Shown in pieces: positions 16,384 through 28,270 of a DNA stretch of 64,000 nt. Both the position numbers and the translations under genes were made by a program. The stretch spans positions 52,340-116,339 of the forward strand of contig JAHBZL010000013.1 of NCBI GenBank assembly GCA_019635485.1. The letters run 5' to 3'. Position 1 is the first letter of the stretch; every line of letters starts with the position of its first letter. Origin of the DNA: Piscinibacter sp. (GTDB lineage: Bacteria; Pseudomonadota; Gammaproteobacteria; Burkholderiales; Burkholderiaceae_C). The notes beneath the pieces were generated by a model. That model did not search any database. It saw only the letters and a program-made list of their open reading frames with translations, and had not been told where the DNA came from.

Positions 16384-17232
16384 TCAGCCGGCGCGCGCGA
16401 AGAACGCCTCCACCAGCGCGAACTGTTCCGGCGTGTTGAGCGCCGGCGCGTGGCCGCAGCCCGCGATCTCGACCACCTCGGCGCGCGGGCCGCGCAGGCG
16501 CATCTGCTCGGTGGTCTCGCGCAGCAGCAGGTCGGACTGCTCGCCGCGCAGGCACAGCACCGGGATGTCCAGCGAGTCCCACTCGTCCCAGCGCAGGTAG
16601 TCGTCGGCGTGGTGGGTGAACTGCATCACCATCGCCGGGTCGTAGTGCGGCGTCACGCGGCCGTCGGGCAGGCGCCGCACCGAGGTCTCGGTGAGGCGGC
16701 GCCATTGCGCATCGCTGAGCCAGCCGTAGGGCTGGTAGACGCTGCGGAAGTACTGCTCCAGCTCGCTGACGGTCGCGAACGCCGCCGGGTGGCCGGCGTA
16801 GCTGCGGATGCGCGCGAGCGCCGGTTCGGCGAGCTGCGGCCCGTTGTCGTTCAGCACCAGGCGGCGGATGCGCCCGCGCAGCAGCGTGGCCGCGGCGACC
16901 GTGCCGATCGCCCCACCCATCGAGGTGCCGAGCCAGTGGCAGCGCTCGACCTGCAGCGCGTCCAGCAGCGCGGCCGCCTGGCGCACGTAGGTCGCCAGGC
17001 AGTACTCGCGCTCGGGGTCGGGGCTCCACTGGCTGAGCCCGCGGCCGGGCGTGTCCGGGCAGATCACGCGCCAGCGCCGCGCGAGGTGCGCGGCGATGTC
17101 GTCCATGTCGCGCCCGGTGCGCGCCAGGCCGTGCCATGCCACCACCGTCTCGCGGTGCTGCGCGCCCCACTCCATGACGTGCAGCTCGCGGCCTTCGCAG
17201 GCCACGTAGCGCGACGTCGGCGACGACTGCAT
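16384..17232 (-). CDS. Alpha/beta hydrolase at the end of the PHB operon
   Basis: 282 residues, no signal peptide. Oxyanion region V-A-W-H-G-L-A-R-T-G, nucleophile elbow G-T-S-M-G-G (Ser near 103), and catalytic His in G-C-G-H-A-P near the C-terminus. It begins 15 bases after the 3-hydroxybutyrate oligomer hydrolase stop and so closes the operon. A cytoplasmic hydrolase here could split short 3-hydroxybutyrate esters or a lactone, but the sequence only supports the general family. Confidence 0.85.
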   Translation of the reverse strand: MQSSPTSRYVACEGRELHVMEWGAQHRETVVAWHGLARTGRDMDDIAAHLARRWRVICPDTPGRGLSQWSPDPEREYCLATYVRQAAALLDALQVERCHWLGTSMGGAIGTVAAATLLRGRIRRLVLNDNGPQLAEPALARIRSYAGHPAAFATVSELEQYFRSVYQPYGWLSDAQWRRLTETSVRRLPDGRVTPHYDPAMVMQFTHHADDYLRWDEWDSLDIPVLCLRGEQSDLLLRETTEQMRLRGPRAEVVEIAGCGHAPALNTPEQFALVEAFFARAG

Positions 17233-17247
17233 CGGCAGGCGGCCCGA

Positions 17248-25841: not shown

Positions 25842-26780
25842 TCAGCGCGCCAGCGGCGCCGGGTCGGCCGCGGCCCGGTCGAACGGGTGGACGGCCTGGC
25901 CGAAGCCGGCGAGGATGCGCCGCACGTAGGCGCGCGTCTCGGCGTAGGGCGGCACGCCGCGGTAGCGGTTCACCGTGCCTTCGCCGGCGTTGTAGGCGGC
26001 CGCGACGAGGGTCACGTCGCCGCGGTAGTAGGCCAGCAGCCAGCGCAGATAGGCCATCCCGCCGCGCACGTTCTGCTCCGGGTCGTAGGGCTTGCGCACG
26101 TTGAAGCGCGCCGCGGTGTCCGGGATCAGCTGCATCAGGCCCTTCGCGTTCTTCGGCGACAGCGCGACGATGTCGAAGTTCGACTCCGCCTGGATGAACG
26201 CCAGCACGAGCTGCGGCGCGAGGCCGTAATGCGGTGCGACCTTCTTGACGAGCGCGGCGATATCCGGCGGCGCCGCGATCGGCGGCACCGCGGGCGCAGC
26301 CGGCGCGCGCGGGTTCGGCGGTGCCACGGCGCGCGGCGGCTCGGGCTCGCGCATGCAGTCCGGCGTGTAGTTCGGCGGGCCGCCGACCGTGGCCAGCATG
26401 CGCACGGCCTGCTCGAGGCCCTGTTCGGCCGCGGCGTGGAAGAAGTAGGCGGCAGTCGAGTCGCTGCGCTCGACCCCACGGCCGTTGGCGTACATCCAGC
26501 CGAGGTTGAACTGCGACTCCGCGTCGCCGAGCCGCGCCGCATCGCAGTAGAGCTTGGCCGCCCGCTCCGGGTCGCGCTCGACGCCTTCGCCGTTCTCCAG
26601 CGCCACCGCCTCGCTGCGCAGCAGGAGCCGGTGCAGGCGTTCGGCACCGGTCTCGACGGTCGAGACGGCGGCCGGCGCCGGACCCGCCAGCACGAGAAGG
26701 GTGCCTGCAACGAAGGCACTCTGCCTGAAAGGCAGACAGAGCGCCCGTCCCAATCGTCCGAATGTCGGACAGCCGGTCAT
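25842..26780 (-). CDS. Lytic transglycosylase with Sel1-like repeats
   Basis: 312 residues. N-terminal signal or anchor (about 12-35), Sel1-type repeats near 70-125 (Q-F-N-L-G-W-M-Y-A-N-G-R-G-V), a Pro/Ala linker with a lone Cys, then a soluble lytic transglycosylase-type SLT domain: catalytic Glu in A-E-S-N-F-D near 195, then K-G-L-M-Q-L-I-P and A-A-Y-N-A-G-E-G. It cuts peptidoglycan in the periplasm. ATG overlaps the stop of the sigma54 activator gene (ATGA). Its place between an activator and the operon that activator probably controls is unexplained; one possibility is local wall opening for secretion of the depolymerase. Confidence 0.88.
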   Translation of the reverse strand: MTGCPTFGRLGRALCLPFRQSAFVAGTLLVLAGPAPAAVSTVETGAERLHRLLLRSEAVALENGEGVERDPERAAKLYCDAARLGDAESQFNLGWMYANGRGVERSDSTAAYFFHAAAEQGLEQAVRMLATVGGPPNYTPDCMREPEPPRAVAPPNPRAPAAPAVPPIAAPPDIAALVKKVAPHYGLAPQLVLAFIQAESNFDIVALSPKNAKGLMQLIPDTAARFNVRKPYDPEQNVRGGMAYLRWLLAYYRGDVTLVAAAYNAGEGTVNRYRGVPPYAETRAYVRRILAGFGQAVHPFDRAAADPAPLAR

Positions 26781-28270
26781 GACGCGAGTTTCTCGTAGAG
26801 CGTGGCGCGCGAGATGCCGAGCAGGCGCGACGCGGCCAGCTTGTTGCCGCCGGTCATCTGGAGCGCCTCGCGGATCGCCTGTGCCTCCAGTTCGGCCACG
26901 GCCTGCGGCAGCGGCTTCACCCCCGCCACCTGAGGAGCGACGGGCGACGCGGCTGGCGTCACCACCCGGCGGGGCACGTCGGACAGCACCGGTTCGCCGC
27001 CGAGCACGCCCTCGAAATGGCACGCGCCGAGCACCAGGTCGTCGGTCATCAGCGAGGCCTGCTCGAGCACGTTGCGCAGCTCGCGGATGTTGCCCGGCCA
27101 AGGCTGCGCTGCGAGCAGGTCCAGCGCGTCCGGCGCCAGGCTGCGGTGCTGCAGGCCATTGCGCCGCGCGATGTCCTCGGCCAGCGATTCGGCCAGCGCC
27201 TCCAGGTCCTCGATCCGGTCGCGCAGCGCCGGCAGGCGGATCGGCAGCACGTTCAGCCGGTAGTACAGGTCGGCGCGGAAGCTGCCGTCGCGCACCATCG
27301 CCGCCAGGTCGCGGCTGGTGGCGGCGATGACCCGCACGTCCACGCGCTGCACCTGGTTGCTGCCCAGCGGCTCGACCTCCTGCTCCTGCAGCACGCGCAG
27401 CAGCTTGGCCTGCAGCGCCAGCGGCATGTCGCCGATCTCGTCGAGGAACAGCGTGCCGCCGTGCGCGAGGCGGAACTTGCCGTCACGCCCCTTGCGTTCC
27501 GCGCCGGTGTAGGCGCCCGGGGCGACGCCGAAGAACTCGGCTTCCAGCAGCGTATCGGGCACCGCCGCGATGTTCACGCCCACGAGCGGGCGGCCGGCCC
27601 GTGCGCTGGCCGCGTGGATCGCGTGCGCCAGCAGTTCCTTGCCGGTGCCGGTCTCGCCCAGCAGCAGCACCGTGCTGTCGGTCTGTGCGACCCGCCGCGC
27701 CTGGCGCTTGACCTCCAACGCCGCCGGGCTGCGGCCGATGAAGCTGGCCACGGTGTGCTTGGGCCGGCGCTCGCGTGTCAGGTGTTCGGCCAGTTGCGCG
27801 CGGGTGCTGTCCAGCTCGCGTTGCAGCTGGCCGAACTTGGCGATCAACGGCTGCATCGTCGTCTCGGGGTGGTCCAGCAGCACCATGCCCATCGCGCCGA
27901 TCACCTCGCCGCGCGCGTCGCGCAGCGGCAGCCGGCTGACCAGGAAGGTGCCGGCCTGGTTGGTCAGCAGGTCCACCAGGATGGCGCGGCCGCTGTCGAT
28001 CACCTGCGCCATCATCGTGTTGGGCACGACCTCCTCGACACGCCGGCCGACGAAGTCGTCCTCGGCATGCCCGAGCGCCGGCAGGAAGCGCTTGTAGCCC
28101 TCGCTGATCCAGACCACGCGGTGCGCCCGGTCCACGACCATCATGCCCATCGCGGTGCGCGCGAAGTTGTCGAACATCGACTGCGCGGCGAGCTTGAGCA
28201 GGCCATCCGCATCGGCCGGCAGCGCGGCGGACGGCGGGGCGACGGCGGGATCGAAAGTGGGCGCAGGCAC
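26777..28270 (-). CDS. Sigma54-dependent activator with N-terminal PAS domain
   Basis: About 497 residues from the GTG at 28270 (start uncertain). PAS domain at about 30-140, then the AAA+ domain with Walker A G-E-T-G-T-G-K-E (205-212), the sigma54-contact loop G-A-Y-T-G-A (252-257; a known F-to-Y variant of GAFTGA) and Walker B T-L-F-L-D-E-I; a Fis-type HTH closes the protein (about 455-497, G-G-N-K-L-A-A-S-R-L-L-G-I-S). It lacks a receiver domain, so the PAS domain should sense the signal. The only good -24/-12 promoter found nearby is that of the PHB operon, which makes it the likely target. Confidence 0.9.
   Translation of the reverse strand: MPAPTFDPAVAPPSAALPADADGLLKLAAQSMFDNFARTAMGMMVVDRAHRVVWISEGYKRFLPALGHAEDDFVGRRVEEVVPNTMMAQVIDSGRAILVDLLTNQAGTFLVSRLPLRDARGEVIGAMGMVLLDHPETTMQPLIAKFGQLQRELDSTRAQLAEHLTRERRPKHTVASFIGRSPAALEVKRQARRVAQTDSTVLLLGETGTGKELLAHAIHAASARAGRPLVGVNIAAVPDTLLEAEFFGVAPGAYTGAERKGRDGKFRLAHGGTLFLDEIGDMPLALQAKLLRVLQEQEVEPLGSNQVQRVDVRVIAATSRDLAAMVRDGSFRADLYYRLNVLPIRLPALRDRIEDLEALAESLAEDIARRNGLQHRSLAPDALDLLAAQPWPGNIRELRNVLEQASLMTDDLVLGACHFEGVLGGEPVLSDVPRRVVTPAASPVAPQVAGVKPLPQAVAELEAQAIREALQMTGGNKLAASRLLGISRATLYEKLAS

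Follow-up and report, generated by a model that had tools for sequence, protein, structure and literature searches.

How the products of poly(3-hydroxybutyrate) (PHB) breakdown get into bacteria is poorly known. Here we consider a gene cluster on the minus strand of a 64,000-nt stretch of DNA from Piscinibacter sp. (contig JAHBZL010000013.1, positions 52,340 to 116,339; hereafter, the window), which belongs to a draft genome of 5.0 Mb with a completeness of 84%. The cluster encodes a substrate-binding protein, a predicted extracellular PHB depolymerase, the ATPases and permeases of a Liv-type ATP-binding cassette (ABC) importer, a hydrolase of 3-hydroxybutyrate (3HB) oligomers, and an alpha/beta hydrolase, and a sigma54 activator is encoded upstream (Table 1). 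We think that this is a PHB-utilisation operon that is induced by 3HB and that its importer takes up 3HB, perhaps along with short oligomers. We would put the probability of this at roughly three in four.

The operon and its promoter

Table 1. Features of the proposed PHB-utilisation cluster, with positions in the window.
Feature	Position	Strand	Basis and remarks
Sigma54 activator	26777..28270	-	Pfam PAS_4, Sigma54_activat, HTH_8; HbcR-like, judging from architecture and the neighbours of homologues
Lytic transglycosylase (slt) with Sel1 repeats	25842..26780	-	Pfam; between activator and promoter
Sigma54 -24/-12 promoter, TGGCACGGGCATTGC	25786..25800	-	35 nt ahead of the GTG start of the binding protein
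Peripla_BP_6 (HAAT) substrate-binding protein (sbp)	24548..25750	-	GTG start; Pfam, Foldseek
Predicted secreted type-2 short-chain PHA depolymerase (phaZ), with FN3 linker and C-terminal domain	22987..24495	-	NF050059, fn3, PDB 2d80
LivG-type ATPase	22208..22960	-	Pfam and NCBIfam
LivF-type ATPase	21462..22211	-	Pfam and NCBIfam; GTG start overlaps livG stop
LivH-type permease	20458..21465	-	PF02653
LivM-type permease	19374..20450	-	PF02653
3HB-oligomer hydrolase	17248..19377	-	PF10605, 1010.8 bits
Alpha/beta hydrolase	16384..17232	-	PF00561, 74.1 bits; usual last gene of the core

A preliminary description of this DNA had placed these genes on one strand with overlapping or nearly touching junctions, and we agree: all of the genes that it named are present on the minus strand with open reading frames. 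Stop and start codons overlap at four junctions, with ATGA at livF/livH, livM/oligomer hydrolase, and activator/slt, and GTGA at livG/livF. The remaining gaps are 52 nt (sbp-phaZ), 26 nt (phaZ-livG), 7 nt (livH-livM), and 15 nt (oligomer hydrolase-alpha/beta hydrolase). From the binding protein through the last gene, there are three overlaps and gaps of 7-52 nt, which is consistent with one transcript. The slt gene (25842-26780) was missing from the earlier gene list. The lytic transglycosylase is probably outside the operon's function; an slt-like gene is upstream only in some relatives (loci L017, L041, L059, and L078 and several loci from the same genus).

The motif TGGCACG-N4-TTGC at 25786-25800 on the minus strand is the sole match without mismatches to the sigma54 consensus within the window. 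(With up to two mismatches, there are 25 matches versus 35.7 expected, which is not above chance.) We compared this region across 80 named loci, which are the best 80 of 584 relatives of the binding protein; among the matches listed, the closest named relatives by this protein are from Roseateles, Rubrivivax, Pseudorhodoferax, and other Burkholderiales. One locus had too little upstream sequence and was left out. Of the other 79 loci, 67 have, in the 350 nt ahead of the binding-protein match, a site that agrees with the consensus in 9 or more of its 11 letters; for 1448 control windows taken from these loci, the figure is 5.4%. When 10 or more letters must agree, the values are 49 loci and 0.35% of the control windows. 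So the sigma54 control that had been proposed for this operon is backed by an exact -24/-12 site that is kept in relatives. Given that this site is 35 nt before the GTG codon, the transcription unit most likely begins at the binding protein rather than at the activator.

PHB enzymes as optional parts of a conserved core

The depolymerase is, by its sequence, a predicted member of the extracellular type-2 short-chain-length polyhydroxyalkanoate (PHA) depolymerases: it scores 368.4 bits against NF050059 (cut-off 280), and its catalytic domain matches PDB 2d80 with E 6e-94. The serine of its GLSSGG box, which we take to be the catalytic nucleophile, aligns with 2d80 and is changed to alanine in a second PDB sequence, 2d81. 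The fn3 match is at 25.1 bits (cut-off 25). The protein is under the gathering cut-off of Pfam's Esterase_PHB (PF10503; 15.6 versus 23 bits), and NCBIfam models the type-2 domain separately, apart from PF10503. The oligomer hydrolase matches PF10605 at full length (residues 43-709; cut-off 27 bits), and its N-terminus, as judged by eye, resembles a signal peptide. By the same kind of inspection, the alpha/beta hydrolase lacks a signal-like segment, and we presume that it is cytoplasmic. A paralogue of the alpha/beta hydrolase, 42% identical, is encoded on contig 56 of the same genome (L148:7557-8414, minus strand), divergent from a 3HB dehydrogenase. Outside the operon, the genome encodes two 3HB dehydrogenases that are above cut-off.

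Across the related loci, the order livG-livF-livH-livM is kept in all 74 for which 6 kb or more of sequence is available downstream, the alpha/beta hydrolase in 66 of the 70 for which this length is 9 kb or more, and an upstream activator in 56 of the 66 that have 8 kb or more on that side. To place the two PHB enzymes, we surveyed 250 genomes from the family: the binding protein occurs in 134, the oligomer hydrolase in 75, and a type-2 depolymerase in 56. (A limited number of candidates were scored per genome, and absences may be overcounted.) At 33 of 59 places, the depolymerase shares the strand of the binding protein and follows it at a distance of 118-303 bp; these 33 places span 27 of the 42 genera that have the type-2 enzyme. 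(Four of the 59 are under the family cut-off, in G278, G227, G286, and G150; the G150 depolymerase is a contig-end fragment and is counted among the 33.) Within genomes that have the binding protein, 33 of 39 depolymerases are adjacent to it, while a crude uniform model would lead us to expect about 0.004. The earlier suspicion that a depolymerase between a binding protein and its ATPases is not there by chance is supported, and the search for the same gene order in other genomes that had been proposed shows that the order recurs. Similarly, the oligomer hydrolase lies 3.6-6.3 kb downstream of the binding protein at 39 of 80 places, or 39 of 54 in genomes with the binding protein. (There were 83 rows, of which three, which are second and third fragments in G034 and G150, were excluded.)

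Of the 134 genomes with the binding protein, 17 have both enzymes in the operon, 16 have the depolymerase only, 22 have the oligomer hydrolase only, and 79 have neither. Because the operon lacks both enzymes in those 79 genomes, we view the activator, the binding protein, LivGFHM, and the alpha/beta hydrolase as the usual core, into which the depolymerase and the oligomer hydrolase are inserted, optionally, at fixed slots. At the 80 loci, all 14 inserts between sbp and livG match the type-2 enzyme, and none is a type-1 depolymerase. (The inserts in L018, L041, L069, L071, and L081 were called by tblastn, as the longest frame there was wrong.) In two Ramlibacter loci, the place of the oligomer hydrolase is taken by a carboxylesterase that is unrelated to it and begins like a lipoprotein (L058:4909-6756, which matches PF00135, and L069:16471-18279), and we infer that this slot is one for an ester hydrolase that is exported. 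When 81 binding proteins are placed on a tree, the depolymerase slot changes 10 times on the best tree, and well-supported branches require only 3 of these changes; occupancy of the slot shows some clustering (3 of 500 shuffles were as low). The oligomer-hydrolase slot changes 14 times on the same tree.

At a threshold of 1e-80, the binding protein is found in 23 of 398 genomes from the phylum, of which 15 are outside the family. We read 16 distant loci from these 15 genomes, and livGFHM follows the binding protein in all but L125, where a second copy within one of the genomes stands without the cluster. At L120 and L127, the gene just ahead of the binding protein, in the same orientation, encodes a CoA-transferase (PF01144). 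At L113, an acyl-CoA ligase and an oligomer hydrolase follow LivM, and at L112, an alpha/beta hydrolase with 34% identity is upstream.

These comparisons bear on the possibility that the importer is specific for dimers or trimers of 3HB, with the alpha/beta hydrolase acting as a cytoplasmic oligomer hydrolase and the monomer entering by another route. Depolymerases often release oligomers, the alpha/beta hydrolase is nearly constant as the last gene, and its paralogue is next to a 3HB dehydrogenase. But a close alpha/beta hydrolase follows livM in just 2 of the 16 distant loci (at 60% and 52% identity), the CoA-transferases at two of these loci are from a family that acts on free acids, and an exported oligomer hydrolase from the same operon would destroy oligomers ahead of their import. 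We consider an oligomer-specific importer to be rather unlikely, and we prefer the reading in which the ligand is probably 3HB itself.

Some observations about the surroundings should be recorded. ORFs on the plus strand upstream of the binding protein, related to each other, are found at L003, L004, L008, L013, L018, L026, and L028, and six of these seven are labelled as lying between the activator and the binding protein. The one at L004 is a chemoreceptor with an sCache domain, and at L144, a chemoreceptor adjoins a 3HB dehydrogenase; chemotaxis to 3HB is possible. In the window, divergent from the activator, a plus-strand cluster (28474-32252) encodes a GntR/FCD regulator, malonyl-CoA decarboxylase, a TctC receptor, and an enoyl-CoA hydratase, and ORFs related to these malonate-cluster genes border the activator in several relatives. 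We rejected this cluster as the source of the ligand, as the core is found without it. Downstream of the operon, on the minus strand, are a Tricorn-like S41 protease (12868-16314) and the selenium-binding protein SBP56 (11390-12784).

A regulator whose homologues accompany 3HB metabolism

The activator has a PAS domain (PAS_4 at 23.5 bits, barely above the cut-off of 23.1), a sigma54 AAA+ domain, and a Fis-type helix-turn-helix. HbcR is described, in the accessible part of PMC10482368, as an activator that works with RpoN and is activated by (R)-3HB, and HbcR (PA2005) carries an N-terminal PAS domain according to excerpts from PMC8694187. On the basis of its domain architecture and the neighbours of its homologues, the window activator seems to be HbcR-like. 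We sought homologues in 229 genomes from the class and 269 from the phylum, and we read all 18 places outside the family (L116, L120, L143-L146, and L149-L160). At 12 of the 18, a 3HB dehydrogenase is within 4 kb. Eleven of these dehydrogenases were scanned, and each is above at least one NCBIfam cut-off for 3HB dehydrogenase (those at L151 and L154 are narrowly under TIGR01963 and above two sister models); the one at L152 was assigned by BLAST and by the arrangement that it shares with L151. Three further places (L120, L143, and L155) are near a PF01144 CoA-transferase. The one at L120 was assigned by its 93% identity to the PF01144-matching protein of L127, and the best NCBIfam model for the CoA-transferase is FadX, with a score under the cut-off.

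The transporters at these places vary. A GntP-like permease, from one family, is at nine (L149, L150, L153, and L155-L160), and presumably PA2005 itself has this arrangement. A TRAP system is at six (L143-L145 and L151 by Pfam, L152 and L154 by BLAST), and a Liv-type ABC system of the window's kind is at L116 and L120. The 12 places with a dehydrogenase divide into eight with the GntP-like permease and four with TRAP. At L151, L152, and L154, an oligomer hydrolase of PF10605 (836 bits for L151 and 819 bits for L154; by BLAST for L152) adjoins the activator, along with the TRAP system and the dehydrogenase. If one activator family that is linked to 3HB is found with three unrelated transporters amid 3HB enzymes, then this is best explained if the GntP-like, TRAP, and Liv-type ABC transporters all carry 3HB. 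With somewhat less confidence than for the operon itself, we favour a broader view: that there is a PHB-utilisation locus with exchangeable parts, namely a 3HB-sensing activator, an importer from any one of these three classes, and optional slots for a depolymerase and for an ester hydrolase that is exported, and that in Burkholderiales the ABC system carries 3HB or its oligomers.

It could instead be that the importer takes up some other acid, such as a branched-chain keto acid, a dicarboxylate, malonate, or an aromatic acid, and that the PHB enzymes share its regulator by way of carbon starvation. HAAT importers do carry many substrates (as reported in the available portion of PMC3223731), the malonyl-CoA decarboxylase cluster is divergent next door, and the 79 genomes with a bare core fit this idea as well. 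Against it, two unrelated PHB enzymes occupy fixed slots across many genera, and the regulator's homologues accompany 3HB dehydrogenase. We think that another acid is very unlikely.

The ligand and comparison with known systems

By Pfam, the importer has the components of the HAAT or LIV type: a Peripla_BP_6 protein, two BPD_transp_2 permeases, and two ABC ATPases. It is under the NCBIfam cut-offs for the urea transporter (UrtA 59.2 versus 492.75, UrtB 157.8 versus 250.3, UrtD 210.6 versus 304.1, and UrtE 212.4 versus 285.8) and also under the curated LIV cut-offs. The predicted structure of the binding protein yielded just a match to its nearest solved relative, RPA4397 (PDB 3n0x; 67% identity in the Foldseek alignment), and entry titles; those of 3n0x and 3nnd state no ligand.

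To look at the pocket, we aligned 97 sequences (from the 80 named loci, the 16 distant loci, and the window) with LivJ of E. coli. In LivJ, as described in excerpts from PMC13103812, Ser79 and Thr102 bind the carboxylate of the amino acid, Glu226 binds its ammonium, and Tyr18, Tyr150, and Phe276 make van der Waals contacts. Ser79 is kept in all 97 sequences and is the only one retained of the polar contacts Ser79, Thr102, Tyr202, and Glu226: Thr102 is Val in 96 of 97, Tyr202 is mostly Gly or Thr, and Glu226 is Ile in 96 of 97. (The alignment at Glu226 may shift by one column, and the neighbouring residues, which are Gly, Asn, and Leu, are also non-acidic.) Tyr150 is Phe in all 97. The plain reading is that the pocket would suit a carboxylate without an amino group, which is not by itself diagnostic of 3HB.

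A preference for branched-chain amino acids would have counted against the earlier proposal, and the pocket does not look like that of such a binder. An ordinary branched-chain amino-acid importer that has PHB genes for neighbours by accident would match the LIV-I systems in fold and in gene set, as this one does. But the ammonium and hydroxyl contacts of LivJ are gone in 96 of 97 sequences, the scores are under the curated LIV and urea cut-offs, and depolymerases adjoin the binding protein far more often than the crude uniform model allows. We give this explanation almost no credence.

Other binding proteins are encoded near some of the relatives. At L044, L052, L057, and L063, the oligomer hydrolase and the alpha/beta hydrolase are separated by another HAAT-like binding protein (the one at L052 matches Peripla_BP_6); perhaps it provides a second specificity, such as for oligomers. 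Tandem duplicates of the binding protein are found in L063, G110:C4, and G178:C1, with second copies that are 68-73% identical to the window protein. Also, a second Liv-type cluster directly follows the alpha/beta hydrolase at L014, L015, L024, L025, L028, L029, L033, L046, L048, L050, and L068.

Several observations weigh against a dedicated 3HB operon. The window operon does not contain a 3HB dehydrogenase, the activator is missing upstream in 10 of the 66 related loci, and several distant loci do not have a 10/11-letter sigma54 site before the binding protein. Among the regulator's homologues, L116 has only the ABC system nearby, L145 has only a TRAP system and a thiolase, and L146 has no 3HB gene nearby. 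Tyr18 and Phe276, which contact the side chain in LivJ, are kept in all 97 sequences, so the pocket is partly unchanged, and the closest binding proteins whose titles name a ligand bind aromatic acids (27-28% identity). Of the 134 genomes, 79 carry an operon that contains neither PHB enzyme, and in 32 we found none of the three enzyme families that we sought; our guess is that such genomes may scavenge 3HB that is released by others. Across whole genomes, presence of the binding protein goes with just a mild excess of PHB enzymes (102 of 134 versus 60 of 116, with odds ratios of 2.0-3.0, ignoring kinship). Because this is just a two- to threefold effect that ignores kinship, our conclusions rest on gene adjacency instead. 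The preliminary description had also proposed a complete unit for capture, import, and hydrolysis. The conserved order and the 3HB-linked regulator support such a unit, but it is not a fixed one, as the bare cores show.

Our proposal, then, is that an HbcR-type sigma54 activator that responds to 3HB would turn on transcription of the operon as one unit from the 25786-25800 promoter. Extracellular PHB would be cleaved by the secreted depolymerase, and the exported oligomer hydrolase would trim the products. The binding protein would capture 3HB, with the monomer as the probable ligand and short linear oligomers or 3-hydroxyvalerate as possible further ones, and LivGFHM would carry it inward, using ATP. 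In the cytoplasm, the alpha/beta hydrolase may cleave imported ester dimers, and a 3HB dehydrogenase from elsewhere in the genome would convert 3HB to acetoacetate.

If this is right, then the ABC route for 3HB would be new; on the broader view given above, it would be the first of its class, and it would be wrong to call the importer's many relatives branched-chain amino-acid importers. It would also give a function to a transporter family that is found in 134 of 250 sampled genomes from the family and in more distant members of the phylum. ATP-driven import that is tied to secreted depolymerases would explain how degraders retain products that are costly to make, and the operon could be used as a genomic marker for degraders of PHB and bioplastics. 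We found no account of this operon, or of any ABC importer for 3HB, in the open-access literature that we searched. All of the parts are from known families; what seems to be new, as far as that literature goes, is the modular layout and the idea that a Liv-type importer serves 3HB. In an exoproteome of Alcanivorax, two proteins were raised on polyesters, ALC24_2998 (a "periplasmic binding protein") and ALC24_2082 (an "alpha-keto acid" binding protein), and the authors suggested them as possible importers of 3HB (PMC7187450, accessible part).

How does the window compare to known systems? It resembles the LIV-I or HAAT importers, such as LivJKHMGF of E. coli, in its fold and in having all five component types. 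In contrast to LIV-I, its pocket lacks the contacts to the amino acid, and both the operon and the regulator fit the use of PHB. The protein RPA4397 from Rhodopseudomonas palustris is alike in that the binding proteins are 67% identical; its entry title shows no ligand, and its name is absent from the main text of a thermal-shift screen (PMC3223731), as far as the available portion of that text goes. The type-2 PHB depolymerases such as 2d80 share the catalytic domain, while the window enzyme sits in a transport operon and has FN3 and C-terminal domains. The HbcR-regulated metabolism of (R)-3HB in Pseudomonas (PA2005) has a similar RpoN activator with an N-terminal PAS domain (accessible parts of PMC10482368 and PMC8694187), and homologues that are about 50% identical to the window activator adjoin a 3HB dehydrogenase and a permease; those places, in contrast to the window, have neither a depolymerase nor an ABC importer. 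Finally, hbtABC of Ruegeria pomeroyi, which the available portion of PMC10130141 (2023) calls the only confirmed bacterial uptake system for 3HB, has the substrate that we propose for the window importer. Some of the activator homologues are encoded beside TRAP systems, as listed above. We take hbtABC to be a TRAP system as well, whereas the window importer belongs to a different transporter class.

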